NCBI GenBank assembly: GCA_028287505.1
Contig: JAQBPN010000044.1
Span: 1 to 55,667 of the forward strand
Direction: 5' to 3'
DNA: 55,667 bases
From: Fibrobacterota bacterium
Lineage (GTDB): Bacteria > Fibrobacterota > Fibrobacteria > UBA11236
The position numbers and the translations under genes were made by a program. Positions 19,657-36,006 of the stretch are shown piece by piece. The notes below the pieces were generated by a model, which had not been told where the DNA came from, made no database searches, and was given only the letters and a program-made list of their open reading frames with translations. The stretch's first letter is position 1; every line of letters begins with the position of its first letter.

Positions 19657-19732
19657 GCCACTTTAGCTCAGTTGGTAGAGCGGCTCATTCGTAATGAGTA
19701 GGTCATCGGTTCAATTCCGGTAAGTGGCTCCA
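19657..19732 (+). tRNA. tRNA-Thr (anticodon CGT)
   Basis: A full cloverleaf of 76 bases. The seven-base acceptor stem GCCACTT/AAGTGGC is perfect and CCA is encoded. The D arm is GCTC...GAGC with AGTTGGTAGA. The anticodon stem GCTCA/TGAGT encloses loop TTCGTAA with anticodon CGT, which reads ACG (Thr). The T arm is ATCGG/CCGGT with TTCAATT. An intrinsic terminator follows six bases later. It stands alone, not in an operon. AT-rich sequence begins downstream, a common situation for integration sites, but I find no second copy of the tRNA 3' end in the window. Confidence 0.96.
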
Positions 19733-21290: not shown

Positions 21291-22886
21291 TTAAGGCAGG
21301 CGCATCCGCTGCCGCGCGTCCGGGAGAGCCAGACGTCCCGACGCATTGTAAATCATGGCGGGATGGTCCGCCGGGCGGCGATAGAGAATGGTGCTGGTGG
21401 ACCCCGGCACCATTTGCAGGATTGGAAGCGCCTGGTTGGCCGCGGGATTCCATTTCGCGATGGTGCCCACGATGTCGTAAGTGAAGGTGGGCTGATCCAT
21501 GAATGCATTGACCAGAAATCCCCCGTCCGCCAGGGTCCGCACCGGTTTGCCCAGGATGGTCAGGTTGTCGATGGTGACGCCGGTGACACGGTGGTTCGCA
21601 TCGAAGCCGTTGATGCGGCATCTGGGAACTTTGCCGCCCAGCACATTGATGTTCTTGAAATGCACGTTCTGGATTTTGCCCTTCTCCGCATCCTGGGTCC
21701 ATACGGCGGTCCCTACCCACAGATCGATGACCAGATTGTCGGTCTGCTCGGTCGGATTCATCCTGGCATCCTCAACGCGGATGTCTTCCCAGCTGATGTT
21801 CTGCATGGTGGCGCGGTCCCCGGCGTGGATGCTCATCACCGGTTTGTGGAAGGCGTGGATGACGTCGATGTCCTTGAAGGTGATGCCTTCCATCACGTCC
21901 GCGCGGGTCTCGTAGCCGATCTCCATCGACTGGGCCAGATCGGTCCAGATGGTGCACCCTGAAAAGGCGATGCCGCTGCTGTTGCCGGTATTGTCGCTCT
22001 TCACGCACAGGCAGTCGTCCCAAGCCCGCACGAAACATCCCTTGATGGTGGAGTTCGAGCAGCCCACCAGATCGATGCCGTCCGAGTTGGGACGGGCGCC
22101 GATGATCTTCACGTCGTCCACGTGCATGCCGTTCGTCTGGCGGATGTTGAAGTTCCAGGTCGGGGAGTCGAACAGGATGATGCCGTTGACGTTGACGTTG
22201 CTGCTGCCGCTGCTGATGTTGATCAGGTTCTGCCAGCCCACGTTGCGCGGTATCTTGGTGCCGCTCAGGATGCCCCGGCCGCGCACGGTGGCGTTGTTGA
22301 TGCCGCCCCCGCGGATGGCTCCGTAGACCACGGCTCCGCCGGCGATATAGATGGTCTGTCCGCTGTTCAGGGTCATCTCGCCGGCATCGTACACTCCCGG
22401 TCCGAAGTAGCGGACGTTGGCGTCGCCGTTGTGCGCAGGGTTGGCCTCGATCGAATCCGCGAAAAGGTGCAGGGCCCGATGGATGTCGCCGTTCAGCTCC
22501 AGAGTCAGCCTGCCCGGCTTGGTCAGGGTGAACGTGACGCTGTTCCCGTTGATGACCGGCTGCACTCCGTAGGAGGCGGGCCGGATGAGGGCGGAGGCGA
22601 TGGTCACGCCCGGCGCGGTTACGGTTACGGCGGCCGAGCCCGAGAAATCGAAATAGGCCACCGGGGTCTTTTCCAGGGTGGGGGTGAGGGAGTAGACACG
22701 GTTGAAATTGACCGCGGTCTCATATACGAATACGGATTTCCCGTCCGCGGTGACCTGGCGATCCGCCGCCGGCGTAATCCCCGACGGGCCCGGGTAAGTG
22801 ACCACGGTGGCTTCGGCAAGGCCGATGCAAGCGGTCGAGACCAACGCGATTAGGCCCGCGAGTCCCATTGTGGACCGTGCAATCAT
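21291..22886 (-). CDS. secreted GH28-like right-handed beta-helix protein (polygalacturonase-like)
   Basis: 531 residues from ATG at 22886, with AAGGGGG six bases upstream; the longer frame starts ten codons earlier without support. A signal peptide (MIARSTMGLAGLIALVSTAC...EA) is followed by a parallel beta-helix with turns such as NNATVRGRGILSGTKIP and VNVNGIILFDSPTWNFNIRQT. The GH28-type active region is present: ARPNSDGIDLVGCSNSTIKGCFVRAWDDCLCVKSDN, then MEIGYETRA. GH28 uses N-x-D, D-D and H-G motifs. Here the first two are NSDG and WDDC, while the G-H-G motif is replaced by MEIGYE, so substrate and activity are uncertain (pectin, dextran-type or other glycan). It is divergent from the SGNH gene, with a regulatory palindrome between them. 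Confidence 0.82.
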   Translation of the reverse strand: MIARSTMGLAGLIALVSTACIGLAEATVVTYPGPSGITPAADRQVTADGKSVFVYETAVNFNRVYSLTPTLEKTPVAYFDFSGSAAVTVTAPGVTIASALIRPASYGVQPVINGNSVTFTLTKPGRLTLELNGDIHRALHLFADSIEANPAHNGDANVRYFGPGVYDAGEMTLNSGQTIYIAGGAVVYGAIRGGGINNATVRGRGILSGTKIPRNVGWQNLINISSGSSNVNVNGIILFDSPTWNFNIRQTNGMHVDDVKIIGARPNSDGIDLVGCSNSTIKGCFVRAWDDCLCVKSDNTGNSSGIAFSGCTIWTDLAQSMEIGYETRADVMEGITFKDIDVIHAFHKPVMSIHAGDRATMQNISWEDIRVEDARMNPTEQTDNLVIDLWVGTAVWTQDAEKGKIQNVHFKNINVLGGKVPRCRINGFDANHRVTGVTIDNLTILGKPVRTLADGGFLVNAFMDQPTFTYDIVGTIAKWNPAANQALPILQMVPGSTSTILYRRPADHPAMIYNASGRLALPDARQRMRLP

Positions 22887-22964: not shown

Positions 22965-23004
22965 GGGTTCTCTGTGGTAAATTGGGTTCTCTATGGAGAG
23001 AACC
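22965..23004 (+). promoter_or_regulatory. operator-like palindrome, site 1 (with upstream half-site)
   Basis: GGTTCTC (22985-22991) and GAGAACC (22998-23004) form a perfect inverted pair with a six-base spacer, followed by TTT. A direct half-repeat GGGTTCTCTGTGG starts 19 bases upstream at 22965. The same architecture recurs at 25161, 28111 and 34361. It lies 52 bases before the SGNH-TPR gene and about 100 bases before the divergent GH28-like gene. Confidence 0.65.
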
Positions 23005-23055
23005 TTTCCCGAAATCGCCGCCAGCGAGGCTGGGCGCGCGGCCTAGTTTGCGAGT

Positions 23056-25131
23056 ATGAGGTTTCCCGAACCCGGTAAAAACAGCGTAAAGACAAGGGGC
23101 AAATGGCGTTCCTGGGCGCCTGCCATCCTGTCGCCGTGCCTTTTCCTGCTGGCCGCGGAAGGGGTGTTGAGGCTGTGCGGTTTCGGGTATCCGGCCGGTT
23201 ACCTCCGACCCCTCGCCATCGGCGGAAAGGCGTATTCCATCGGGAATCCGGACTTTTTCCGGACCTATTTCCCGGCCCGCCTGGCGCCTTATCCGGATCC
23301 GGTCACCATTCCCCTGGAAAAGTCCCCGGATGCCTATCGTATCTTCATCCTGGGCGAATCGGCGGCATTGGGCATCCCCGAGCCGAGCTTCGGATTCGGC
23401 CGGATCCTTGAGCGCATGCTGCGGGACCGGTATCCGGGCATCCGCTTCGAGGTCATCAACCTCTCGGTTACGGCCATCGATTCCCACGTCCTGCTGCCCA
23501 TCGCGGAAGCGGCCTCCCGCCGCCATCCCGATCTCTTCATCCTGTACATGGGGAACAATGAGGTGATCGGGCCCTACGGACCGGGCACCGTGTTCGCGCC
23601 TTTCGCTTCCGGAACCGCTTTGATCCGGGCCGCCGTGGCCGTGAAGTCCACCCGCACGGGGCAATTCCTGGACGGACTCCTGGGCCGCATGGGCGTGAAC
23701 GCCGCGGGGCGCGCAAAAGCCGCGGGAGGCGGTGATGCCATGGGGCGCGGGAATCGGGCGGGCGCGGAAAAATGGGCGGGCATGGAGATGTTCCTGGACC
23801 GCACCGTTTCCCGGGACGATCCGCGCATGCAATCCGTCTATGCGAACTTCCGCAAGAACCTGGACGGCATCCTGTCCGCGGCGAAATCGTCCGGAGCGCG
23901 CGTCATCATCAGCACCGTCGCCGCCAATCTCCGCGACAACGCGCCCTTCGCATCCGTGCATCGTCCCGGCCTTTCGGAACCGGAGCTCAAAACCTGGCGG
24001 GGGCTTTGCGATTCGGCCGCCTTTCTGGCCGCCGCGGGAATGCCGGAAGCGGCCCTGCGCCTCTACATGAAAGCGGAGGACATCGATTCGGTCCCCGCGG
24101 AGCCGCGCTTCCGCATGGGCCGGTCGCTGCTGGCCCTGGGCCGCGCGGAGGAGGCCGCGCAGGCATTCCAAACGGCCCTGGACCGGGACGCCCTCCGCTT
24201 CCGCGCCGACTCGCGTCTGAATTCCATCCTGAGGGAAAGCGGCCGGGGCCGCTCCTCCGAAGGCATCTGGCTCGCGGATGCGGACAGCGTATTCCGATCC
24301 GCCGCCGTCGATCACGCGCCCGGCGCCGAGTTCTTCTATGAACACGTCCACCTGCGCTTCGAAGGCAATTACCTGCTGGCGCGGACCCTTGTGCCCTATT
24401 TGGATTCCGCGCTGGCGGTTTCGGGCAAGGCCGATTCCCGATCCTCCGGGCCCTTGCTTTCCGCGGAGGCGTGCCGCGCCTCCCTGGCCCTTACAGGATG
24501 GAACCGTCTGGAGATGGCGAAGAAAATCCTGGCCATGGCGGAGCGCCCTCCGTTCTCGGGGAAAAGCGATTCCGGCGAGCATCGGGCACGGCTTAAGCGC
24601 GAAGTGGACTCCTTGGGCGCGTACACGGGCAACGACTCTTTGCAAGCGGTGCTGGAAGAATATCAGCGCGCCATACCCGCCGCGCCGGGGGATCTTACGC
24701 TGCGGCGCAATCTCGGGGATCTGTTCTACGCCTGCGACTATCTGCCGCAGGCCGCGGAGAACTACCGCGCCGTTCTGGAGGGCGTGCCCCAGGATACGCG
24801 CACCCGCCAGATGCTGGCCAAGTCCCTGGCCGAACAGGGAGACGGAAAGGGCGCCGTGGAGGAATACGGTCGGGCGCTGGAGTTCACTCCCGGGGCCGTG
24901 GAGCTTCGCAATGGGCTGGCGAACAGCCTGGCCGGGATGGGCGACTACGCGGAGGCAGTCCGGCAATATGCAATCGCCTTGCAAGGCAATCCCGATCTCG
25001 CCGAAGTCCATTTCAACCTTTCCCGGGCCCTGACCGCCCTGGGACGGACCCGGGAAGCGGCGGAACATTTGCAGGCGTCCCGCCGTCTGGACCCCGATTT
25101 TGCCCCCGCAACTCCGGAAAACGGACTTTAG
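23056..25131 (+). CDS. membrane-anchored SGNH-type hydrolase with C-terminal TPR repeats
   Basis: 691 residues. A basic N-terminus and one hydrophobic helix (about 20-38, WAPAILSPCLFLLAAEG) anchor or export the protein. The SGNH/GDSL-like domain carries the block I motif ILGESAALG (about 98-106) with Ser as nucleophile candidate. It also has VINLSVTAIDSHV, the block III motif YMGNNEVIGPYG (about 172), and a late YEHVHLRFEGNYLLA (about 433) holding the catalytic His. After it come TPR units (AIPAAPGDLTLRRNLGDLFYACDYLPQAAENYRAVLE and two more). Proteins of this build act as acyl-ester hydrolases or acyltransferases on surface polymers; the substrate is unknown. The open antisense frame over it is a shadow. 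It is preceded by operator site 1. Confidence 0.85.
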   Translation: MRFPEPGKNSVKTRGKWRSWAPAILSPCLFLLAAEGVLRLCGFGYPAGYLRPLAIGGKAYSIGNPDFFRTYFPARLAPYPDPVTIPLEKSPDAYRIFILGESAALGIPEPSFGFGRILERMLRDRYPGIRFEVINLSVTAIDSHVLLPIAEAASRRHPDLFILYMGNNEVIGPYGPGTVFAPFASGTALIRAAVAVKSTRTGQFLDGLLGRMGVNAAGRAKAAGGGDAMGRGNRAGAEKWAGMEMFLDRTVSRDDPRMQSVYANFRKNLDGILSAAKSSGARVIISTVAANLRDNAPFASVHRPGLSEPELKTWRGLCDSAAFLAAAGMPEAALRLYMKAEDIDSVPAEPRFRMGRSLLALGRAEEAAQAFQTALDRDALRFRADSRLNSILRESGRGRSSEGIWLADADSVFRSAAVDHAPGAEFFYEHVHLRFEGNYLLARTLVPYLDSALAVSGKADSRSSGPLLSAEACRASLALTGWNRLEMAKKILAMAERPPFSGKSDSGEHRARLKREVDSLGAYTGNDSLQAVLEEYQRAIPAAPGDLTLRRNLGDLFYACDYLPQAAENYRAVLEGVPQDTRTRQMLAKSLAEQGDGKGAVEEYGRALEFTPGAVELRNGLANSLAGMGDYAEAVRQYAIALQGNPDLAEVHFNLSRALTALGRTREAAEHLQASRRLDPDFAPATPENGL

Positions 25132-25136
25132 GCCGG

Positions 25137-25182
25137 GAGGTCTCCTATCGATGAACCCGAGGGTTCTCCTATCGGTGAACCC
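25137..25182 (+). promoter_or_regulatory. operator-like palindrome, site 2 (tandem)
   Basis: GGGTTC (25161-25166) and GAACCC (25177-25182) with a ten-base interior starting TC (TCCTATCGGT), followed by TTT. A degenerate copy lies 24 bases upstream (25137-25158), sharing TCCTATCG-TGAACCC. It lies 101 bases before the TIGR02147 regulator gene, so autoregulation is possible. A -10-like TACAAT occurs near 25243. Confidence 0.6.
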
Positions 25183-25283
25183 TTTGCTACTTCTTGGCAC
25201 GGAAAGGGGTGTCGGAATACCGTTCCACCGGTACATTTTGATACAATACCGAGCATAAGGATACCCTCCTTAGAAAAGCGCCA

Positions 25284-26111
25284 ATGCCCAACTTATTCGC
25301 CTATCTCGATTACCGTCAGTACCTCAAGGACTACTATGAGGAGAAAAAGGCCGCCAGTTCGGTCTTTTCCTACAAAAGCTTCGCCAACAAGGCGGGTTTC
25401 AAGACCAAAAGCTTTTTGAAGATGGTGATCATGGGAAAGAAAAATCTTTCCGACTCTTCCTTGCAGAAGGTGGCCAAAGCCCTGAAGCTGGACGATAAGG
25501 CCACCTCCTATTTCGAAGATCTGGTCGCCTTCAACCAAGCCAAGTCCCTCAAGCTGCGGAACCAATTGCTGGAAAAGCTCCTGATCCACAAGGTGCAGGG
25601 CGTGGGCCGCATCATCCAGCAGGCCCAGTACGAATTCTATTCGCAGTGGTTCCACAATACCATCCGCGAATTGCTGCCCCATCTTGATTTCAAGGGCGAT
25701 TACGAAGGCCTGGGCAAGCTGTTGTTTCCGCCCATTTCCAAGGAAGACGCCAAGCGCTCCGTGGACATGATGACCCGCCTGGGCCTCATCCAGAAGAAGG
25801 AAGACGGCAAGTATATCCAGGCCGATCCCATCATTACCACCGGGGACGAAGTCATTTCCATGGCCGTGCGCAATTTCCACCTTGAGAACTTCCTTTTGGG
25901 CGCAAAAGCCCTGGAAAGTTGCCCGGCCCCCCTGCGGGATCTATCTTGCTTGGTGGTGCGTCTTTCCGACGGTGGGTTCCAGTTGCTGAAACAAGAGATC
26001 CAGGGATTCCGGAAGCGGCTTTTGGAGCTGACGGAAAGCGACACGAATTTCAAGCGCGTTTACCACATTTCCTTCCAGATGTATCCGACAACCCAGGAGA
26101 TTCCTTCATGA
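25284..26111 (+). CDS. TIGR02147/DUF4423-type HTH protein
   Basis: 275 residues. The start PNLFAYLDYRQYLKDYYEEKK and the end KRVYHISFQMYPTT are the family signatures: FxYxDYRxYLxDxY at the N-terminus and VYxLxFQLFPLT at the C-terminus. Residues about 30-75 (YKSFANKAGFKTKSFLKMVI, then KVAKALKLDDKATSYFEDLV) have the spacing of an XRE-like helix-turn-helix. The middle contains the usual YYxxWxxxxIRELL-like segment (EFYSQWFHNTIRELLP). The family was first defined from many paralogues in Fibrobacter and is probably regulatory. Its TGA overlaps the next gene's ATG (ATGA), coupling it to a surface lipoprotein. It is preceded by operator site 2. Confidence 0.9.
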   Translation: MPNLFAYLDYRQYLKDYYEEKKAASSVFSYKSFANKAGFKTKSFLKMVIMGKKNLSDSSLQKVAKALKLDDKATSYFEDLVAFNQAKSLKLRNQLLEKLLIHKVQGVGRIIQQAQYEFYSQWFHNTIRELLPHLDFKGDYEGLGKLLFPPISKEDAKRSVDMMTRLGLIQKKEDGKYIQADPIITTGDEVISMAVRNFHLENFLLGAKALESCPAPLRDLSCLVVRLSDGGFQLLKQEIQGFRKRLLELTESDTNFKRVYHISFQMYPTTQEIPS

Positions 26112-27892
26112 CGCGGATGCGCCCGTCGGGGGGACGACGGACGCCATCGAAACGGAACTCACCGTTTTGGGCGATACCGGGCCTGCTGGCCGCAATCTTT
26201 TCGCTGTTATCCTGCACGGAGAAGGGACCCACCACGGTCGCGGGATCCGAAATCGGCAATCCCACCGTCGCCGTTTCCGGCATCGCCCTCTATCCGGACG
26301 GCCGCACTGCGGGAGGCGCCAGCGTTCTGCTGCGCCGCCAGGATTTCCTGGCCGAAGACAAGGGCACCAAGCTCCTTTCCTCCATGGCCAGATTGGGCCA
26401 GGCGAAAGTCTCCGTGTCCCTGGCGAACGTCTTCACCGACAGCCAAGGCCGTTTCCGCATCGACTCCGTGGACGCGGGCGACTACCGCATCGAAATCAAT
26501 GACGGCCAAAGCCAGGGCCTGGTCCTGGATTTCCCCGTGACCGTGAAAACCCATAAGGACACGGTGGTGCACCCGGATTCCCTGCGCGCCAACGGTACCG
26601 TCTATGGCATGGTCGAATGGGACGCGCCGCCATTGACTCCCTTCGTGGCCTTGGCCTACGGAATGGATCGGGTGGCCATCGTCGATCAGGTCACCGGAAA
26701 GTTCACCATCGATCAGCTGCCACCGGGGACATACACCTTCAAGGTGGGTTGCCTGAGCCGCGGCTGCCTTTCCAAGGACGTGGAAAACGTGCATGTCGCG
26801 GCCGGCGAGAGCGTCAATCTCCCCGTCGTCACCCTTTCATCCTTCGCCACCGAGGACTATTCCAAGTGGACGGACTCCGCGAAGGTGACCGTGAACACGT
26901 CCGCATCCGGCGCCGCCGTCTCGGAAACCCTCGCGAACTTCCCCCTGCTGGTCCGCCTGGACAGCTCCAATTTCGATTTCAGCAAGGCCGACGGCCGCGG
27001 TCGCGATATCCGCTTCGCCAGCCTCTCGGGTCGGCATCTCCATTTCGACATCGAGCGCTGGGACAGCCTGGTTCGCAAGGCCGAAATCTGGGTGCAGGTG
27101 GATTCCATATACGGGGACAACGGCGCCCAGTCCCTGAAAATGTTGTGGGGCAATCAGGCGGCGGCCTACTATACCGGATCCACCCAGGTGTTCGGCGCGC
27201 AAGCGGGTTACCGAGGCGTGTGGCATCTGGCCGAGGAAGGTTCTTCCACCGCCAATGGCTTCCGTGATGCCAGCGGCCACGCCAACCATGGCACCGGCAT
27301 CGGCATCGGTCCCGTAGCCAGCCGCGAGGCCGTGGCGGGCCAAGGCCTGTCATTCGACGGCAACACCTCGGTGGAAGTGAAAGCCGATTCCTCCCTGCAT
27401 ACCAAGGATTCGCTCACCCTGGAAGTCTGGATCAACGCCAGCGAGTGGGGCGTCGAAAAGAACAAATTCAAACGCATCGTCAGCAAGGCATTCGCCGCCT
27501 CGGGATATCCCTGGACGGAATACGATATCGAGACGGACAGCACGGGCACCAAGGTGGCCTTCTCCATCACCCTGGGCGGAACCCTCCGGACCGTCATCAG
27601 CTCCACCCAGACCGAACTGGGGTACTGGTACCACGTGGTGGGAACCTACGATGGAGAGAACCTCAGCATCTACGTGAACGGCGCGCAGGAAACCAGCCAG
27701 CTCCGGCCCGGGGTCATCACCGATTACGGCAGGGGCCTGACTTTCGGCAGATACGATTTCGACAACGCCAGCAATTACCACGGCAAAATCGATGAAGTCC
27801 GGGTCTCCTCCCGGGCGCGTTCCGCCGGTTGGATCAAGCTGAGCTACGAGAACCAGAAACAGGGTTCCAAAGTGGTTTCCATCGTTCCCTAG
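26108..27892 (+). CDS. surface lipoprotein: carboxypeptidase-regulatory-like, DUF2341 and LamG domains
   Basis: 594 residues from the ATG overlapping the upstream stop; longer frames upstream are shadows of the regulator gene. A lipoprotein signal ends in LLSC with Cys36. Two carboxypeptidase-regulatory-like beta sandwiches follow (about 60-160 and 155-240; e.g. GRFRIDSVDAGDYRIEI, GKFTIDQLPPGTYTFKV). A DUF2341 domain (about 255-355: SETLANFPLLVRLDSSNFDF..DIRFA, then KAEIWVQVDSI) precedes a LamG/concanavalin-like domain (about 370-590: GLSFDGNTSVEV, TLEVWINASEW, DGENLSIYVNGAQ, GKIDEVRVSSRARS). This is a typical outer-surface glycan-binding protein. Translational coupling to a regulator suggests that the pair is one functional unit. 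Confidence 0.88.
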   Translation: MTRMRPSGGRRTPSKRNSPFWAIPGLLAAIFSLLSCTEKGPTTVAGSEIGNPTVAVSGIALYPDGRTAGGASVLLRRQDFLAEDKGTKLLSSMARLGQAKVSVSLANVFTDSQGRFRIDSVDAGDYRIEINDGQSQGLVLDFPVTVKTHKDTVVHPDSLRANGTVYGMVEWDAPPLTPFVALAYGMDRVAIVDQVTGKFTIDQLPPGTYTFKVGCLSRGCLSKDVENVHVAAGESVNLPVVTLSSFATEDYSKWTDSAKVTVNTSASGAAVSETLANFPLLVRLDSSNFDFSKADGRGRDIRFASLSGRHLHFDIERWDSLVRKAEIWVQVDSIYGDNGAQSLKMLWGNQAAAYYTGSTQVFGAQAGYRGVWHLAEEGSSTANGFRDASGHANHGTGIGIGPVASREAVAGQGLSFDGNTSVEVKADSSLHTKDSLTLEVWINASEWGVEKNKFKRIVSKAFAASGYPWTEYDIETDSTGTKVAFSITLGGTLRTVISSTQTELGYWYHVVGTYDGENLSIYVNGAQETSQLRPGVITDYGRGLTFGRYDFDNASNYHGKIDEVRVSSRARSAGWIKLSYENQKQGSKVVSIVP

Positions 27893-28110
27893 CGGGCTGC
27901 CGCTTCAGTAACCTCCAGGCTACCCGGGCGCCCTCGGCCCTCCGCCTCCGTCTCCCCTCCGAAACCGTACCATCCCAAATACCCCGAAACGCCGGGGGTT
28001 CCGCCCGCCGTCCCATCCGGACCGCTGCCGCTGATCCGCCCGTGCTTGGAAACGCGATTCCCGATCCTTCGAAAACCCCGTAAAATAAGGCCTAGACGCT
28101 GGTTACGTAC
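27893..28110. other. intergenic region upstream of the fibro-slime gene
   Basis: This first part of the 495-base gap before 28388 is C-rich with no convincing frame. A small CCCCG/CGGGG hairpin near 27978-27994 may be a weak terminator for the lipoprotein gene. The second part holds operator site 3 and the leader hairpin, listed separately. Confidence 0.4.
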
Positions 28111-28128
28111 GTTCTCTCCGCGGAGAAC
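28111..28128 (+). promoter_or_regulatory. operator-like palindrome, site 3
   Basis: GTTCTC (28111-28116), spacer TCCGCG, GAGAAC (28123-28128), then CCTTT. It is a perfect inverted repeat with the same six-base spacer as sites 1 and 4. It lies about 260 bases before the fibro-slime start codon and 67 bases before the shared leader hairpin. Confidence 0.65.
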
Positions 28129-28192
28129 CCTTTAGGGTCCGGAAAGGGGGTAAGCGAAGCGGGGAAAAGGGCGGGGGGATAGATTTGTCTCA

Positions 28193-28238
28193 CCGAACGG
28201 CGAACGTGTCCCAGTGGGGAGGATACGGAAGCCGGCGG
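28193..28238 (+). promoter_or_regulatory. structured leader hairpin, copy 1
   Basis: CGGC (28198-28201), GAA, CGTGTCC (28205-28211) pair with GGATACG (28221-28227), GAA, GCCG (28231-28234) around loop CAGTGGGGA. Outer CCG/CGG extends the stem. The symmetrical GAA/GAA internal loop is notable. The related hairpin at 34449-34489 stands at the same distance from its operator. It lies in the presumed 5' leader of the fibro-slime gene. Confidence 0.5.
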
Positions 28239-28387
28239 AAGGGAGCGAGTAGGCTTTCGGGTGAGGGGCGGTTGGCCCGATGAAACCCGATAAGCCGGCG
28301 ACCTCCCCTCCGGAATCCGGGCGGGCGCCTCTGCATGAATCGGCGTCACCGGGAGTTCCGCGAGTTGAGGGGACTAAAGGGAGGAAT

Positions 28388-31300
28388 ATGAGTCTTGCAG
28401 GAGGAAAAAAACTGGGATTATTCGTCCTTTTCGTACTGCTTGGGTTGCAGTCGGCGTTGGCGCAGAACGTAACCTATCGGATCCATTTCTATTCGCCCTG
28501 GAAGGACAACGCCGTCCGCAGCACGCCGCCGGCGCACATCAACATGGAAGGCTCGGGCGGCCCCATCGCCAACCACGGCCCCGCCATGACCGCGGAAGGC
28601 GCCGACTGGTACGTGCAGTCCGTAACGTTCAATCCCGGCCCTCCCGGCACGGGCGACGGCTACCGCAACTTCTCCTTCCACAATTACGTCCCCAACGCCA
28701 ACGACAACTGGGCGAACGATACCACCTACCGGAACAACGGCAAGGATTTCACCCTCGACGACATCTTCTTCAAGACCGGGTTCAAGAACGACGTCTGGGT
28801 CATCCCCCAGGGCCCCAATCTTCCGCCCATCATCACCGATATCCCGCCCAACACAAAGGTGGTCTACCTCTTCAATCCCTGGGCGCTCGGCGCTCCCGAC
28901 ATCAAGACGGGCAAGGTCGATTGGTCCCACATGCGCTTCCCAATGGACAAATCGCGCTGCGGCTGGTTCGTCTTCTACATCACGGACGGAAACTATTCCG
29001 TCACCTTCAGGAACCAGATCGGCGGGGAACTCTACGGAGCAGCCGGAGCCAAGGACGGCGGCATGATCGACCTATCCAGCTATTTTTCGACTGACGACAA
29101 GGATACGGCCTTCATCGTCCCGACCCCGTATCCCGTCGGCGCGCCCAAGATCACCAATGCCTACCCGATCGGCGTGCTGGGCACCTGCAAATTCGACCTG
29201 GCCGTGACCGTCCGCGACTTTACCGCGGCGCATCCCGATTTCGAAGAAGATCGCAGCACCTATGACGGGCTCAGGAAAGGCCTGGTCCTGCCCACCTTGG
29301 GCGCCGACAAGAAGCCCAAAAAGAATACCGCCACGGTTTCCAAGTTCACCAATTATCTCGACAATTGGTTCATTACCGATTCCACCAACGCCAATCCCGC
29401 GCTCCGCAATTGGCAATCCTGCTATGATCTGCCCATCTCCAAATCCATCGATGGCTATTGGCAATACAGCTCGCTCGATGAGTTCACCACCGGCTTCTTC
29501 CCCCTGGGAGATCCGAAGACGGGCCATTCGTCCGCGGACCCGGCGCACACGAACTGCTACACCACCGACATCGACGTCAAAAGCTGCATGGGCGCTCCGG
29601 CCGACAAACCCACCGCCGTGGCCAACCAGAACTTCAATTTCTGCATGGAAATGCACGCCAATTTCAAGTACGAGAAGGGCCAGAAATTCACCTTCATCGG
29701 CGACGACGACGTCTGGGTGTTCATCAACAACAAATTGGTCATCGACCTGGGCGGCACCCATTGGCCCATCAAGGATTCGGTGGCGCTGGATACCGTGACC
29801 GGCATAACCGCGGGCCAGAAGTACGACTTCGACCTGTTCTATTGCGAACGCCAGTTCAGCGGGTCCAACCTCCTGATCAAGACCTCCATCTATTTCGAAC
29901 AGACGCAAGCCATCAAGGCGGATCCCACCGTGGTGGGAAGCCGGACCGACTACAACATCACGGAGAGCACCTGCGGCGACAAGAGTTGCGGCGCTGTGCT
30001 GACCGCGAGCGATACCTGCCATACGATCCCGGGCGTCTCCACCTTCAAGCTTACGGGCGGCAGCATCGTCACCCCGGAAGCCTTGCCGGTCGGCACTTCC
30101 CATGGCGGCATTGTCGTCGACGCCAACCGCACCAAGGTTTCGGTGGATACCTCCAAGATCGCCGACCTGCCCCCGGGCATATACCGCATCATCTTCACCA
30201 GCGACAGGTCCAACCGTGCCGGTTATGTGGAGTTCGAGATCACCGGCAGTTGGCTGGTGGACTTCGTCACCAAAGCCGGTGCTGATGCCCTGGTGGGAAC
30301 GCCGGTGGGCGCCACTCTCCGCGCCACGCTCAACGGCAAGCCCGACCTCGCCGGCCAGGACTTCACTCTGACCCCGGTGGCCGGACTCAACGTGTTCGAG
30401 GATTCCGCCATGACCAAGCCGGTCACTTCGACCACCGTCCTCAAGACCGATGCCTCGGGAAACAAGAAGGTCTGGGTGACCGCGGCCGCCAAGGGAACCT
30501 ATACCGTCACCGTCAAGGGCGTCAAGGCGAAGGCCACCGATACCTTCACGGCCAACTTCTTCGCGATAGTGAAAGCTTCCACCCCCGTGGCCACGCCGCC
30601 CGGCACCACCTTCAACGCCGCCACCATCGTCTCTTTGGCCTCGGCCACTCCGGGCGGAGCGACCATCCTGTACACCACCGACGGGTCCACGCCGGATTCC
30701 GCTCTGGGAGGGACGACCAAGACATATACCGGCCCCATTACCTTGGACAAAACCCTGACGCTCAAGGCCATCGCCATCAAAGCGGGCTACTACAAGAGCG
30801 ACGTCATGTCCGAGAGCTATGTCTTCGTGATGCTCACGGCGGCCGTGCCCGTCGCCACTCCCCCGGGCAAGAACTTCGCCGCGCCTTTCTCCGTCACGCT
30901 CGCGTCGGCCACGTCCGGAGCGACCATCCTTTATACCACGGACGGGTCGGTGCCGGATTCCGCTTTGGGCGGGACGACGAAGACCATGACCGGGCCCATC
31001 CCTCTGACCGCATCCATGACCTTGAAGGCCATCGCCATCAAAGCCGGCTTGCATAAGAGCGAGGTCATGACCGAGACCTACGTCTATACGCCGCCCGCGA
31101 ACGTCAAGCATGCGTATTACAAGGATCTCAACGGCGACGGGAAAATCGAAACCGTGATCGTGGACTACGACGAGGATCTGTCCGTCGTTCCGGAAAAACT
31201 GACTTTCAAGGTGGGAGCTCCAACGGACCAGGAGCTTACCGCCCGCAACGATCAGAAGGAAATAGCCTTCGCCGCGGGGTCCAAATCCCGCATCGTTGTG

Positions 31301-32287
31301 ACTTTCTCGAAGCCCTTCCCTTTCGGGGTCACTTCCGTGGCCGACCCCGCGAATTCCGGGCACCAGTACGTCCAAGACAATATCCCTACGCTGGACGGCG
31401 CCTTCCCGGTGGATGATTCGGTACCCCCCGTGATCATTTCCGCCGTGGTCAAGGCGCCGGACAGTCTCCAGCCCTATGTCAAGGTTCTGGTCACCTTTTC
31501 CGAAACGGTCACCTTGCCTTTGGGAAGCCAGACGGCAATCGTGTTCAGGCGCGACGGAACGGAAATGGCTTCGGCCGACGTGAAGCTGATGGGCATCGCG
31601 GCCGCGGGCGATCGCGCCTACGAAGTGAGGGTCGACTCGACTTCGAGCAAGTTCCCCATCGTCGGCGACTATGCGGCCGCCAATACCAACGGCGAGATCG
31701 TGGACGGAAACCGCAATGCGCCCGCCGTCAAGGCCTTCATGATCCTGACCGGCACCGTTCCCAAGGGCAAGGCCGCGAACGTATATATCACTTTCGCCAA
31801 CGGCACCAATAAGGCCGGCGACGGCATGCCCACGGGATCCGAGCCCAACACTCCCTCCGACGTGCTCTTCATCCCGTTCGATAAAGCGGGAACCGCCCTG
31901 ACAGGCGACAAGAGCGACGGCAAGTGCACCGGTTGCTTCGTGGGCGGCGAAGGAAAATTCGTGGGACCCGTGGTGTTCATGGAAGTCCCCGGTCCCGTGG
32001 AATACGATTTCCGGATCTTCTCCAACATGGGCGAGTTCGTCGCGGCGGGCAAAGGCAAAATCACGGAAGAGGACATTCCCGGACTGACGCCCATCCATAA
32101 CGGCACCGGCTACCTCGCCCGCGTCGTCTGGACCGGTCGCACCGCGGACGGCGCAAAGGCCGGCACCGGCGCTTATGTGCTCATCTCGACGGTGAGGACG
32201 CAAAAGAATCTGAAGACGGGCGCGCCTCCAGCCACGGATACCAATCGCATCCGTTTCGGCATGTTGCGCAACTATCGCGGCAGCTGA
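28388..32287 (+). CDS. fibro-slime domain surface protein with two CHB_HEX-type repeats
   Basis: 1299 residues from ATG at 28388 (GGGAGG seven bases upstream; the longer frame from 28280 is unsupported). A signal peptide ends SALAQ. The N-terminal third is a beta-rich region of unknown type (FYSPWKDNAVRSTPPAHINM and a second VVYLFNPWALGAPD unit). The fibro-slime domain (about 270-530) has TTGFFPLGD, NFNFCMEMHANFKYEKGQKFTFIGDDDVWVFINNKLVIDLGG (Gly438-Asp-Asp-Asp-Val-Trp) and FDLFYCERQFSGSNL. Two tandem chitobiase-C-terminal-like units follow (about 730-818 and 819-908), both with TILYTTDGS-PDSALGGTTKT. An Ig-like end (YDFRIFSNMGEFVAAGKG...GTGAYVLISTV) resembles FlgD-Ig/sorting modules. In Fibrobacter such proteins are tied to cellulose adhesion; the ligand here is unknown. 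Confidence 0.9.
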   Translation: MSLAGGKKLGLFVLFVLLGLQSALAQNVTYRIHFYSPWKDNAVRSTPPAHINMEGSGGPIANHGPAMTAEGADWYVQSVTFNPGPPGTGDGYRNFSFHNYVPNANDNWANDTTYRNNGKDFTLDDIFFKTGFKNDVWVIPQGPNLPPIITDIPPNTKVVYLFNPWALGAPDIKTGKVDWSHMRFPMDKSRCGWFVFYITDGNYSVTFRNQIGGELYGAAGAKDGGMIDLSSYFSTDDKDTAFIVPTPYPVGAPKITNAYPIGVLGTCKFDLAVTVRDFTAAHPDFEEDRSTYDGLRKGLVLPTLGADKKPKKNTATVSKFTNYLDNWFITDSTNANPALRNWQSCYDLPISKSIDGYWQYSSLDEFTTGFFPLGDPKTGHSSADPAHTNCYTTDIDVKSCMGAPADKPTAVANQNFNFCMEMHANFKYEKGQKFTFIGDDDVWVFINNKLVIDLGGTHWPIKDSVALDTVTGITAGQKYDFDLFYCERQFSGSNLLIKTSIYFEQTQAIKADPTVVGSRTDYNITESTCGDKSCGAVLTASDTCHTIPGVSTFKLTGGSIVTPEALPVGTSHGGIVVDANRTKVSVDTSKIADLPPGIYRIIFTSDRSNRAGYVEFEITGSWLVDFVTKAGADALVGTPVGATLRATLNGKPDLAGQDFTLTPVAGLNVFEDSAMTKPVTSTTVLKTDASGNKKVWVTAAAKGTYTVTVKGVKAKATDTFTANFFAIVKASTPVATPPGTTFNAATIVSLASATPGGATILYTTDGSTPDSALGGTTKTYTGPITLDKTLTLKAIAIKAGYYKSDVMSESYVFVMLTAAVPVATPPGKNFAAPFSVTLASATSGATILYTTDGSVPDSALGGTTKTMTGPIPLTASMTLKAIAIKAGLHKSEVMTETYVYTPPANVKHAYYKDLNGDGKIETVIVDYDEDLSVVPEKLTFKVGAPTDQELTARNDQKEIAFAAGSKSRIVVTFSKPFPFGVTSVADPANSGHQYVQDNIPTLDGAFPVDDSVPPVIISAVVKAPDSLQPYVKVLVTFSETVTLPLGSQTAIVFRRDGTEMASADVKLMGIAAAGDRAYEVRVDSTSSKFPIVGDYAAANTNGEIVDGNRNAPAVKAFMILTGTVPKGKAANVYITFANGTNKAGDGMPTGSEPNTPSDVLFIPFDKAGTALTGDKSDGKCTGCFVGGEGKFVGPVVFMEVPGPVEYDFRIFSNMGEFVAAGKGKITEEDIPGLTPIHNGTGYLARVVWTGRTADGAKAGTGAYVLISTVRTQKNLKTGAPPATDTNRIRFGMLRNYRGS

Positions 32288-32318
32288 GGCCATGCCGGCG
32301 AAGAAGGATTTTTCAATC

Positions 32319-34118
32319 ATGGGGACGAAAATGCTGATGTCAAAGTTTTTGGTGGCGGGAACGGCGGCCCTCGCGGCCGGGATTACCCTTGGGAATGCCC
32401 AGACGGGAACCATATCGGTCCACAATGACCTGGTGTTGAATCCGGCCTATACGCTGGCGGAGATGCATCCCGCCGCCTGGGTTCCTCCCCAGGTCGGCGA
32501 CATGGCGCTGATGGCGGACGGGAAGCTCGTGATCCTTACCCACGAGCTCAGCCTCTCCGACAAGGAGAACACAACCAATGTTCCCCGCTCCAACAGCAAA
32601 GTGTACCTGGTCGGCAACTACAAGTCCGCGGACCTGGAAACAATCGATACCCTGCTGGTCGCGAAGGACTTGAAGGAAGCCACCGGAGTCTGCGTGGTGG
32701 ACGGCAAGATCTACGTGATGGAAAAGCTCCAGCTTACCGAATTGACCTTGGGCGCTCCCGGGACCATGGCCACCGCCCGCAAGGTGGCGGATATCGGCGT
32801 GGATGCGCTCGGGGTCGTCAATTTCCAGGAATACGCATTCGGCCTGATCTACAAGGACGGATACTTCTATTCGGCCCTGGGCGGCGGAGTCCGCATCGGG
32901 GGCAAGTCCTATTCGGACGACTTGTCGAAGCTCACCGAACCCAACCGCGACGGCGTCCTTAAAATCAAGGCTTCGGACGGCAGCAAGGAGCTTCTGAACG
33001 GCGGCTTGCGCGCCCCCAATGGAATCGCCTTCGGACCGGCCGGAACCATGTGGGTTACGGACAACCAGGGCTCCTGGCTGCCCTCCTGCAAGCTCATCAA
33101 TGTGGTGAACGGCCGGAACTACGGGTATCCCAACGGCCCCGGCAAGTTCCGGGACATGGTGGAATCCCCGCCCGCGGTCTGGTTTCCCTACAGCGAAATC
33201 GGCAGGTCCCTGACCCATCCCGCCTTCCTGAAGACCGGCCCGTTCGTCGGCCAGTTCCTGATGGGAGATCTTTCCCAGGGGGGCATGATACGCGCCGCGG
33301 TGGAAGTGGTCAACGGAGAATACCAGGGGTCGGCCCATTCCTTCAGCGGCGGCTTCACGGCCGGCGTGGAAGCGACCCTGGAACTGGACGACGGCAGCTT
33401 TGTCCTGGGCGGCCTGGGAAAAGGCGACGTGGCCAACTGGGGATGGAGAGGCAAGCTGCGCGGACTGCAGAGACTGACCCCCAAGCCCGCCACCACCAAC
33501 TTCGAGATCCTCGCCCTGCATTCCAAAAGCGACGGGATTGAAGTCGAGTTCACCAAGCCGGTGGGAGCGGGCGCCGACCTGGTCGCCACTTACACCATGT
33601 TCTACGGCACCATGACTCCCAGCGAGCTCTATGGAGGCGGCAACATGCTGAACAAGACCCTCATCACCATCAAGAGCGCCAAGGTGTCGCAGAACAAGAT
33701 GCGCGTATTGCTGGAAGCCGACGGCCTGGTTCCCAAATCCGTTATCGCGGTCAGGGTCACGGGCCTGAAGACCGAGGCCGGAGAGGAATTGTACCGCCCC
33801 GCAGCCTGGTATACCCTGAATAGCGTTTCTCCGGTCAAGTGGACGGACGTTACCTCCGTCAACGACCGCGCCAGGGCCAAAGGCCTTTCCGTGGAAAGCA
33901 TCCTGACCGCGCGCATGGGCCGCAACCTGTCCGTCAAGGTGCCTTTCGCGGGCGCCCACGTCGTCACTCTCCGCAATCTGCGCGGCGAGGCCCTGGAATC
34001 CCGTTCCGGTTCCGGAGCCGGCCAGTACCTGCTCGGCAATTCCGCTCTCGCATCCGGAATGTATCTCCTGGACGTGAAGGTGGGCGATCAACTGCTGCGC
34101 AAGAGCGTGGTGTTCTAA
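32319..34118 (+). CDS. secreted beta-propeller sugar-dehydrogenase-like protein with C-terminal sorting-like domain
   Basis: 599 residues from ATG at 32319 (AAGGA ten bases upstream); ATGs at 32292 and 32331/32337 are alternatives. A signal peptide ends near LGNAQ. The body looks like the glucose/sorbosone dehydrogenase or DUF7133-type propeller: GDMALMADGKLVILTHE, ATGVCVVDGKIYVME, and the strong motif LRAPNGIAFGPAGTMWVTDNQGSWLPSCKLINV. An Ig-like region (about 395-500) precedes a C-terminal 60-residue module (VPFAGAHVVTLRNLRGEALES...LASGMYLLDVKVGDQLLRKSVVF) like type IX-type sorting domains. It lies 31 bases after the fibro-slime gene with no terminator between, so one operon under operator site 3 is likely. 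A strong terminator follows. Confidence 0.82.
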   Translation: MGTKMLMSKFLVAGTAALAAGITLGNAQTGTISVHNDLVLNPAYTLAEMHPAAWVPPQVGDMALMADGKLVILTHELSLSDKENTTNVPRSNSKVYLVGNYKSADLETIDTLLVAKDLKEATGVCVVDGKIYVMEKLQLTELTLGAPGTMATARKVADIGVDALGVVNFQEYAFGLIYKDGYFYSALGGGVRIGGKSYSDDLSKLTEPNRDGVLKIKASDGSKELLNGGLRAPNGIAFGPAGTMWVTDNQGSWLPSCKLINVVNGRNYGYPNGPGKFRDMVESPPAVWFPYSEIGRSLTHPAFLKTGPFVGQFLMGDLSQGGMIRAAVEVVNGEYQGSAHSFSGGFTAGVEATLELDDGSFVLGGLGKGDVANWGWRGKLRGLQRLTPKPATTNFEILALHSKSDGIEVEFTKPVGAGADLVATYTMFYGTMTPSELYGGGNMLNKTLITIKSAKVSQNKMRVLLEADGLVPKSVIAVRVTGLKTEAGEELYRPAAWYTLNSVSPVKWTDVTSVNDRARAKGLSVESILTARMGRNLSVKVPFAGAHVVTLRNLRGEALESRSGSGAGQYLLGNSALASGMYLLDVKVGDQLLRKSVVF

Positions 34119-34146
34119 GCCCTTTTCCGTCCCTTCCAACCACCGC

Positions 34147-34184
34147 AAAAGCCGCAGGCGATCCGCCTGCGGCTTTTGTGTTTT
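34147..34184 (+). terminator. intrinsic terminator of the fibro-slime operon
   Basis: AAAAGCCGCAGGCG (34147-34160) pairs perfectly with CGCCTGCGGCTTTT (34164-34177) around ATC and is followed by GTGTTTT. Confidence 0.93.
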
Positions 34185-34360
34185 CCGGGCGTGTCGGCCA
34201 GGGGCCTTCCGGGCCTTCTCCAACCCCAATTCCGGTTGATCGGGACGCGAATCATATCGCCACTGGGGAAAGGCCTGGAACACCGTCCCGGGCCCGCAGG
34301 AAGGGCGCCAAACGCGGGTCGGACAATGCCTCCGGAAACCCGGAAACAAGGCTTGCGGAC

Positions 34361-34378
34361 GTTCTCCCCGTGGAGAAC
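34361..34378 (+). promoter_or_regulatory. operator-like palindrome, site 4
   Basis: GTTCTC (34361-34366), spacer CCCGTG, GAGAAC (34373-34378), then CATTT. It nearly copies site 3 (the spacer differs). It lies 137 bases before the start codon at 34516 and 68 bases before the second leader hairpin. The rest of the 34119-34515 gap holds the terminator at 34147 and no gene. Confidence 0.65.
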
Positions 34379-34448
34379 CATTTCGGCCCGCGGTTACATA
34401 GATGGCGTGGCCCGGAGGGAAGGGGGCATTAGTTTTGGAATCACATCA

Positions 34449-34489
34449 GGCGGCACATTATCCTCGTGGGGAGGAGTGTGGTGGACGCC
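34449..34489 (+). promoter_or_regulatory. structured leader hairpin, copy 2
   Basis: GGCG (34449-34452), CACA (34454-34457) and TCCTC (34461-34465) pair with GAGGA (34471-34475), TGTG (34477-34480) and CGCC (34486-34489) around loop GTGGG. The loop-side string GTGGGGAGGA is identical to that in copy 1 (28214-28223), while the stem bases differ. It begins 68 bases after site 4. Confidence 0.5.
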
Positions 34490-34515: not shown

Positions 34516-36006
34516 ATGTTTCAGTTTACCCAACGAGCGAATGGAAAGAAGGCCTTCTCGGCCGGACTCTCCATGATCGCATGCGTCACCGCGGCCGCCC
34601 TTTCCGGCGCCAATGCGGCCGAGCCCACCTACACCGTGGGAGCCCGCACGACCGTTCTGGGCAATAACGTCGGCGGCCTCACCCAGTTCCCGGAAGCGCC
34701 CATCTCCATTCTCCAGACCACGCCGGAATACCATGTGCTGATTTCCACGGGCCTCAAGACCGCCTTTTGCAAAGGCGCGAGCATGTCGACCCTGTCGGCC
34801 ACCAGCTACGCGCTCCAGCCTTCGAATGCCAAAGGCTACGACGAGGTTTCCGCCCACATCACCAGCACCTGGAAGGATCCGGAAACCGGCGACATCTACG
34901 GCGTGTTCAACGCGAACGATTCCGACGGCGTGCCCCGCATCCCGGGTCCCGGCATCGGTTTCCGCGGCCGTTATTTCACCACCAGCCTGGCCAAGTCCAC
35001 CAACGGCGGCGCCAACTTCTCCAAAATCGGACCCATCCTCAGCATCCCCAAGAACGCCACCGCGGATCCCCTGCAGGGCGATGCCTTCGGCAGCGTGGTG
35101 ATGAGCCCGGACAAGCAATACCTGTATCTCTACTACGGCGACATGTACCGCGCCCAGTTCCGCCATGGCGTGCAGACCTGCGTGGCCCGCGCCACCGTGG
35201 CCTCCAAGGGCCTGCCCGGTTCCTGGAAGAAGTGGTACAGCATGGACTGGGTCACCCCGGGCATTTCCCTGATTGATACCGCCACTTACGAAGGCGCTGA
35301 GACCGATCCGGTCGTCACCTTCCCCGGCCTGGATTCGGGTTACAACGGCGATGCCATGTACCCGCACGTCGTCTATTCCGCAAAGGCCGGATGCTACATC
35401 ATGGTCTACGCCGTCAATTCCTTCGACGATATCCCCGAAGCGGATTCCCTGGGCCATTTCCCCGCCGTGCAGAAGAGCGGCATCTACATCACCTATTCCA
35501 AGGACGGCCTCAACTGGGTCGGCTCGCACATGCTCGTGAAATCCGTAGTCATCGACTATCCCGGCCGCGAAGTGGCCCTGCATCCCGCCATCGTGGTGGA
35601 TGAAGCCGCCGCCGGCGCCGGAATCAAGGCGACCGTCTACTACGGCTACAGCGCCAACATGTGGCTCGGCACCCCCGCCACCCAGTACCTGGTTTCCCAG
35701 ACCGTGGACATCAGCGCCCTGCCGTCGGACTTCTTCACCGCCGGCATCGTCACCAAGTCCAAGTCCTCCCGCGGCGCTCCCGGCTACTCCCTGCTCCAAG
35801 GCGGCGCGGGCGAGTTCATGCTGAGCTTCAAGAACGACGTGAACGCGCTCAAAGTGATCACCGCCGACGGTTCTTCCGCAGGCAAGGCCGTCCGCGTCGG
35901 TCAGGGCCGGTACCAGTTGCAGGTTTCCCGGTCCGTCGCCGGACCTTATTTCCTCCAGGGCAAGCAGAACGGCCGGACCTTCTCCAGCTTCCTGCGCCTG
36001 CCTTAG
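34516..36006 (+). CDS. secreted beta-propeller-like protein (GH43/sialidase-like fold?)
   Basis: 496 residues from ATG at 34516, with AAGGAG seven bases upstream. A signal peptide ends LSGANA. The mature part shows repeated blade-like units with aromatic/Asp motifs: SAHITSTWKDPETGDIYGVFNAND, YFTTSLAKSTNGGANFSKIGP, YPHVVYSAKAGCYIMVYAV, SGIYITYSKDGLNWVGS. The last two (Y-x-x-S-x-D-G-x-x-W) are Asp-box-like, as in sialidases and GH43/GH32-type five-bladed propellers. Catalytic residues cannot be assigned. The C-terminal 45 residues (ALKVITADGSSAGKAVRV...GPYFLQGKQNGRTFSSFLRLP) form a compact beta module like a sorting domain. It is a single-gene unit behind operator site 4. Confidence 0.78.
   Translation: MFQFTQRANGKKAFSAGLSMIACVTAAALSGANAAEPTYTVGARTTVLGNNVGGLTQFPEAPISILQTTPEYHVLISTGLKTAFCKGASMSTLSATSYALQPSNAKGYDEVSAHITSTWKDPETGDIYGVFNANDSDGVPRIPGPGIGFRGRYFTTSLAKSTNGGANFSKIGPILSIPKNATADPLQGDAFGSVVMSPDKQYLYLYYGDMYRAQFRHGVQTCVARATVASKGLPGSWKKWYSMDWVTPGISLIDTATYEGAETDPVVTFPGLDSGYNGDAMYPHVVYSAKAGCYIMVYAVNSFDDIPEADSLGHFPAVQKSGIYITYSKDGLNWVGSHMLVKSVVIDYPGREVALHPAIVVDEAAAGAGIKATVYYGYSANMWLGTPATQYLVSQTVDISALPSDFFTAGIVTKSKSSRGAPGYSLLQGGAGEFMLSFKNDVNALKVITADGSSAGKAVRVGQGRYQLQVSRSVAGPYFLQGKQNGRTFSSFLRLP

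Follow-up and report, generated by a model that had tools for sequence, protein, structure and literature searches.

A palindrome upstream of secreted-protein genes as the predicted operator of a TIGR02147 protein in Fibrobacterota

Introduction

One palindrome, GTTCTC-N6-GAGAAC, recurs in the intergenic DNA of the surface-gene block of a 55,667-nucleotide stretch of DNA from a Fibrobacterota bacterium (hereafter the window; contig 127 of the organism's 6.07-Mb draft genome, G000), which raises the question of whether it is the operator of a regulon and, if so, which protein reads it. The genome paper of Fibrobacter succinogenes described the transcriptional control of cellulase genes as an unanswered question, with few recognisable regulators nearby (PMC3079729). 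One gene of the window encodes a member of TIGR02147, which has so far been annotated as a paralogous family only. We found no function described for this family in the literature, where it is named once, as a domain, in a Bdellovibrio proteome (PMC12546842). A first-pass annotation of the window had proposed an undescribed regulon operator with this protein as a suspected regulator, and our literature searches found no earlier description of the palindrome or the regulon.

Results

Four intergenic copies of the palindrome in the window

A pattern search of the 55.7-kb window returned three perfect copies, against ~0.003 expected from the 12 fixed bases, and one copy with a single mismatch. 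The palindrome is thus real and far above chance, and no further copy with zero or one mismatch exists in the window, in keeping with the first-pass statement that none was seen in the flagellar, ergothioneine or signalling regions.

22986-23003, no strand: site 1, GTTCTCTATGGAGAGAAC, perfect, between the divergent GH28 and GDSL/TPR genes
25163-25180, no strand: site 2, GTTCTCCTATCGGTGAAC, one mismatch, TIGR02147 gene promoter
28111-28128, no strand: site 3, GTTCTCTCCGCGGAGAAC, perfect, fibro-slime promoter
34361-34378, no strand: site 4, GTTCTCCCCGTGGAGAAC, perfect

All four sites are intergenic and lie, as had been described, upstream of the genes starting at 23056, 25284, 28388 and 34516. 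The genes concerned are the following:

21291-22868, minus strand: GH28 (polygalacturonase-like) secreted protein, predicted target with site 1 upstream on the minus strand (Pfam PF00295, E 1.3e-11)
23056-25131, plus strand: GDSL-like/TPR protein, predicted target (TPR matches; GDSL found in the G004 ortholog)
25284-26111, plus strand: TIGR02147 (Fsuc_second)/DUF4423 protein of 275 aa, predicted regulator (profile matches)
26108-27892, plus strand: laminin-G/DUF2341 lipoprotein-like gene (Pfam)
28388-32287, plus strand: fibro-slime domain surface protein, predicted target (TIGR02148, E 3.9e-36)
34516-36006, plus strand: secreted protein with a signal-peptide-like N-terminus, predicted target

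The T-rich flank noted before is present at all four sites (ctttc, ccttt, ccttt and cattt). Other details of the first-pass description need correction. Site 2 had been given as GGGTTC-N10-GAACCC with the same total length as the others, but that form spans 22 bp against 18 bp for the motif; read in register, site 2 is the 18-bp motif with one mismatch. The shared orientation of the sites simply follows local gene direction, as site 1 faces the divergent GH28 gene too and targets elsewhere lie on either side. Tandem half or degenerate copies beside sites 1 and 2 (22967-22972 and 25139-25156) are not kept in two sister species (G004 and G005).

The laminin-G/DUF2341 gene overlaps the stop of the regulator gene by 4 bp with synteny kept in G004 and G005, and the two are probably in the same operon. 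The product of 34516-36006 has no match in Pfam or NCBIfam, and its orthologs were found only in G004 (74%) and G005 (66%). Shortly before the start codon of several targets lies a GTGGGGAG element (window 34461-34480; DUF1080 and GxGYxYP leaders) that is strongly conserved between species, takes the form TCCTCGTGGGGAGGAG before 34516 and may be a ribosome-binding or leader element.

A dispersed set of sites in the genome

The complete draft genome holds eight perfect sites, against ~0.4 expected from the motif's 12 fixed bases; the reversed control pattern does not occur in it. Perfect copies inside genes or before unrelated genes, which the first-pass annotation had named as evidence against an operator, were not seen: all eight perfect sites are intergenic and each stands before a secreted- or surface-protein gene. 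The claim that the palindrome marks only the surface-gene block is correct within the window but fails for the genome, where five of the eight perfect sites are on other contigs (L001-L005). Their targets are a glucose/sorbosone dehydrogenase (GSDH), a GxGYxYP putative glycoside hydrolase, a DUF1080 protein (with a 3-keto-disaccharide hydrolase domain), an alpha-1,3-glucanase and a DUF6259-like protein carrying a sorting tail. The window block is thus a single cluster within a regulon that is dispersed over the genome.

Nearly all true sites conform to GTTCTCY-N4-RGAGAAC. A one-mismatch site (L107) between genes for a GH10 xylanase and an uncharacterised secreted protein was retained, since the copy between these two genes in G005 is perfect. 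Three other one-mismatch matches with fitting Y/R inner flanks (L105, L106 and L108) were rejected, two being intragenic and one lying between convergent genes; this survey, which applied the Y/R inner flanks, left out G000:C125:6744.

Conservation in two congeners

Among 60 relatives, more than three sites were found only in the two congeners G004 (seven) and G005 (nine), with none for the control. Of these sites, six in G004 and all those in G005 are at promoters, mostly of the same orthologs as in G000, while the G004:C47 match lies inside a gene and was rejected. In alignments of the three species, the palindrome and a downstream hexamer stand out as conserved islands, i.e., the conservation at orthologous upstream regions on which the first-pass annotation had made the operator depend is found in two other species. 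Site 1 is kept in both with its flanks attgg/ctttcccg, as is site 4, and site 3 is kept in G004 and at two fibro-slime genes of G005. The counterpart of site 2 has one mismatch in G004 and is perfect in G005, so this putatively autoregulatory site is the least perfect in two of the three species. Each of the two window-type fibro-slime genes in G005 (on C3, L037, and C85, L039) has a perfect operator with a -10 element at 63 bp.

The relatives G001, G002 and G003 have zero, zero and one regulon-type match, the last intragenic and rejected. A close ortholog of the 25284 protein (95% identity in G004, 90% in G005) was found only in the regulon-bearing genomes, all three of which have the site upstream of its gene; the best matches in G001-G003 reach 47, 39 and 38%. 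This co-occurrence is partly confounded and not independent of gene content because G001-G003 also lack two targets that were tested. Across the three species, the predicted regulator (95 and 90% identity) is far better conserved than any gene next to it (48-79%).

Promoter geometry

We predicted -10 hexamers with an E. coli matrix. A scan for such hexamers at equal distance in orthologs yielded one peak only, 63 bp from the site centre (combined score 36.8 against 8.6 for the runner-up; 99.9th percentile of the null 23.3; p = 5e-5 by circular shifts). The hexamer lies at 63 bp for fibro-slime, 34516, alpha-glucanase and GSDH (a perfect TATAAT), at 62 bp for DUF1080, at 73 bp for the TIGR02147 gene and at 52 bp for GDSL/TPR, and the steps between 52, 63 and 73 bp each equal one helical turn. 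The spacing from site to -10 is identical to the base between species, whereas the distance to the start codon varies.

23044-23049, plus strand: -10-like TAGTTT, 52 bp from the site 1 centre, same spacing in G004 and G005
25242-25247, plus strand: -10-like TACAAT, 73 bp from the site 2 centre, same spacing in G004 and G005, within a conserved GTACATTTTGATA(C/G)AAT in all three species
28180-28185, plus strand: -10-like TAGATT, 63 bp from the site 3 centre, same at four orthologous/paralogous promoters
34430-34435, plus strand: -10-like TAGTTT, 63 bp from the site 4 centre, with TAAGTT at equal spacing in G004 and G005

For GxGYxYP, DUF6259, GH10 and GH28, the scan showed no clear -10 where the spacing predicts one. 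The start codon of the GDSL/TPR gene is uncertain, since ATG 23056 coincides with the predicted transcription start and lies 7 bp after the predicted -10 at 23044, so the gene is either leaderless or begins further downstream.

No good -35 element was found at the regulon promoters, where the best matches (1-3 of 6 positions) are at random level. With ~9.5 bp allowed between the -10 centre and the transcription start, the site centres fall at ~-61.5, -72 and -82.5; at lac, CRP acts as a class I activator from a site centred at -61.5 (PMC6728893). Judged by predicted -10 elements, the sites thus show two features of class I activation, i.e., helical phasing at positions before the core promoter and the lack of a good -35, and this combination supports an activator.

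The predicted regulator and its family

The 25284 protein is a full-length member of TIGR02147 (residues 1-271; E 8e-85, 284.6 bits against a curated NCBIfam cut-off of 50 bits) and matches DUF4423 in Pfam (E 2.8e-29). Residues ~28-70 resemble a Cro/C1-type helix-turn-helix (HTH) and are helical with pLDDT 80-89 in an AlphaFold model made from four sequences, which is poor past residue 180 (pLDDT mostly <50). HTH_3 (PF01381) matches the protein weakly (E 0.025, 15.1 bits against a gathering score of 23) and appears at E up to 1 in 12 of 38 paralogs (best 1.8e-4). A structure search with the model gave no significant match and no PDB relative of DUF4423 was found, with all structure and sequence matches below significance. 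Membership in the CRP/FNR family was rejected: neither a cyclic-nucleotide-binding domain nor a CRP-type HTH was detected, DUF4423 being the protein's only Pfam match above cut-off. TIGR02147 proteins number 56 in G000, 53-85 per genome across the three regulon-bearing species and ~22-85 in the larger genomes searched.

Predicted paralog operators that vary with the recognition helix

Other TIGR02147 paralogs in the genus have their own upstream palindromes with half-sites GTTGTC (N5), GTTTAC (N4), GTTTCC (N4) and GCTTAC (N5). From inspection of the G000 paralogs, we defined a class GYTNNC-N4..6 plus complementary arm and then kept it fixed. In three test genomes, its density upstream of paralogs is 10-34 times that in the rest of the same loci (0.93 versus 0.03 sites/kb in G004, 0.51 versus 0.05 in G005 and 0.64 versus 0.02 in G002), though the values for G004 and G005 also measure conservation because both include orthologs of G000 paralogs. 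Most paralogs in the genus do not have a class palindrome. The class was found at none of 29-30 paralogs each in G010, from another family (L169-L197), and in the Fibrobacter genome G011 (L244-L246 and others), and a phylum-wide claim was therefore dropped. In G011, one paralog (L245, sharing 39% identity with the window protein) comes close to the class, with CGTTGTTTCTGGACAACG upstream.

The enrichment is confined to this specific class. Generic palindromes with any arms and a span of 16-22 were also tried and gave almost no enrichment before TIGR02147 genes (runs of six pairs 70% versus 53%, p = 0.03; no difference from other genes for runs of 7-8 pairs).

The pairs of recognition helix and half-site are KTKSFLKMVIMG with GTTCTC, KTKDFLYRVMHG with GTTGTC, NSAPYFKFVIEG with GTTTAC and NSSGFYKNVVDG with GTTTCC. 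Half-sites agree in 18 of 22 ortholog pairs and in 3 of 66 pairs from different groups. Across 12 groups, a Mantel test relates the half-site to the recognition helix (p 0.012) and gives p 0.17 for the C-terminal domain. A -10 element lies at about 52-53 bp, with a peak at ~53 bp, from the paralogs' operator centres (17 groups, p = 5e-5 to 1e-4; weaker, p = 0.01, when restricted to perfect sites).

A second operator predicted from a paralog

GTTGTC-N5-GACAAC was searched last, as an out-of-sample prediction from another paralog. It occurs four times in G000, nine times in G004 and ten times in G005 but not in G001-G003, and all controls gave zero. Ten of the 17 unique sites have a strong -10 at 51.5-53.5 bp from the centre, against 0.025 expected per site, and two more have one at ~62.5 bp; the p value of 1.5e-12 is optimistic since some sites are mutual orthologs, though the effect is clear. 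The paralog with the KTKDFLYRVMHG helix (G000:C78 L072, G004:C73 L115, G005:C319 L156) carries two such operators in its own promoter region, with others nearby. By the measure of these sequence features, the GTTGTC set is a second regulon with the same architecture.

In both sister species, the DUF1080 promoter has a GTTGTC-N5-GACAAC site ~65 bp upstream of its GTTCTC site, and two TIGR02147 paralogs may act on this one promoter. The G000 DUF1080 promoter is without a GTTGTC copy.

G004:C4:21380 and 21446 (L033, L265): double sites at the DUF1080 promoter
G005:C94:11972 and 11907 (L040, L264): double sites at the DUF1080 promoter

Discussion

Reading the motif, its targets, conservation, -10 spacing, paralog operators and helix covariation from the sequence of draft MAGs, and inferring direct binding, dimerisation and activation, we think it likely that GTTCTC-N6-GAGAAC is the operator of the TIGR02147 protein encoded at 25284-26111, which would be a class I activator of a regulon for secreted and mostly polysaccharide-related proteins. 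Sequence support for the suspected role of this protein comes from the site in its own promoter, from co-occurrence, from the paralog operators and from recognition-helix covariation. The proposal of an undescribed regulon operator thus gains support at a wider scope: what had been described for a local block becomes a dispersed regulon with a family-wide arrangement of promoters.

The protein probably binds as a dimer with one N-terminal Cro/C1-type HTH per half-site. Its position would be ~61.5, 72 or 82.5 bp before the transcription start, on one helix face, at promoters that have a -10 and lack a -35. From there it would switch on its own operon together with about ten scattered transcription units whose products are secreted or at the surface. 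Most of these products would act on polysaccharides (fibro-slime, GH28, GH10, alpha-1,3-glucanase, GxGYxYP, DUF1080, GSDH and others). The same arrangement, with a different half-site for each paralog, would hold for about ten other TIGR02147 groups in the genus.

Operators alone are silent on the sign of regulation, and Cro/C1-type HTH proteins often repress. We nevertheless consider it improbable that the TIGR02147 protein is a repressor, acting, e.g., by looping or by blocking upstream sequences, as none of the sites overlaps the -10 or the start. They keep instead to class I positions before the -10, in helical phase, and the promoters lack a -35 like activator-dependent ones. We would be similarly surprised if another, unlinked activator bound the palindrome with the TIGR02147 gene as just one of its targets. 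Adjacency is not binding, and the genome surely has many other HTH proteins, but class palindromes recur family-wide at TIGR02147 promoters, half-sites covary with recognition helices and the GTTGTC operator was predicted from a second paralog.

Much less credible still is the reading as RNA hairpins (terminators or leader structures) or as dispersed repeats of the REP type that do not serve as operators, even though intergenic DNA commonly holds short inverted repeats with a few T after them. The six inner bases are variable and need not pair, and the sites are upstream of the predicted -10 and hence outside the transcript. There are only eight copies, at conserved orthologous loci, some of them common to divergent genes, and Rfam reports nothing in the window but a tRNA (19657-19729), with no RNA element at the palindromes.

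The predicted activator resembles class I CRP at lac (PMC6728893) in having a palindrome upstream of the core promoter at ~-61.5, -72 or -82.5 from the predicted start, with helical phasing and no -35. It differs from CRP in combining an HTH with DUF4423, and TIGR02147 comprises many paralogs with their own half-sites rather than one global regulator. Its N-terminal HTH appears to be of similar fold to the Cro/C1-type (HTH_3, XRE) proteins C.BclI, C.AhdI and SinR, with weak sequence similarity, but unlike theirs is fused to DUF4423. For the TIGR02147 (Fsuc_second)/DUF4423 family, the operators and the proposed activator role are new here.

We lean slightly towards the broader view that TIGR02147/DUF4423 proteins are lineage-expanded, dedicated class I activators, each with a palindromic operator of its own, and each activating its own gene as well as a scattered set of genes for secreted or surface proteins that act on polysaccharides, and would thereby form the regulatory layer so far missing in these Fibrobacterota. 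The half-sites (GTTCTC, GTTGTC, GTTTAC, GTTTCC, GCTTAC), tabulated with the recognition helices, are a ready data set for DNA-recognition rules in an unstudied HTH family. Should TIGR02147 proteins prove to be activators whose operators can be read, the regulons behind polysaccharide degradation and adhesion would become predictable from sequence and testable promoter by promoter, and TIGR02147 activator sites could explain how these bacteria turn on their secreted sugar-polymer-degrading genes.
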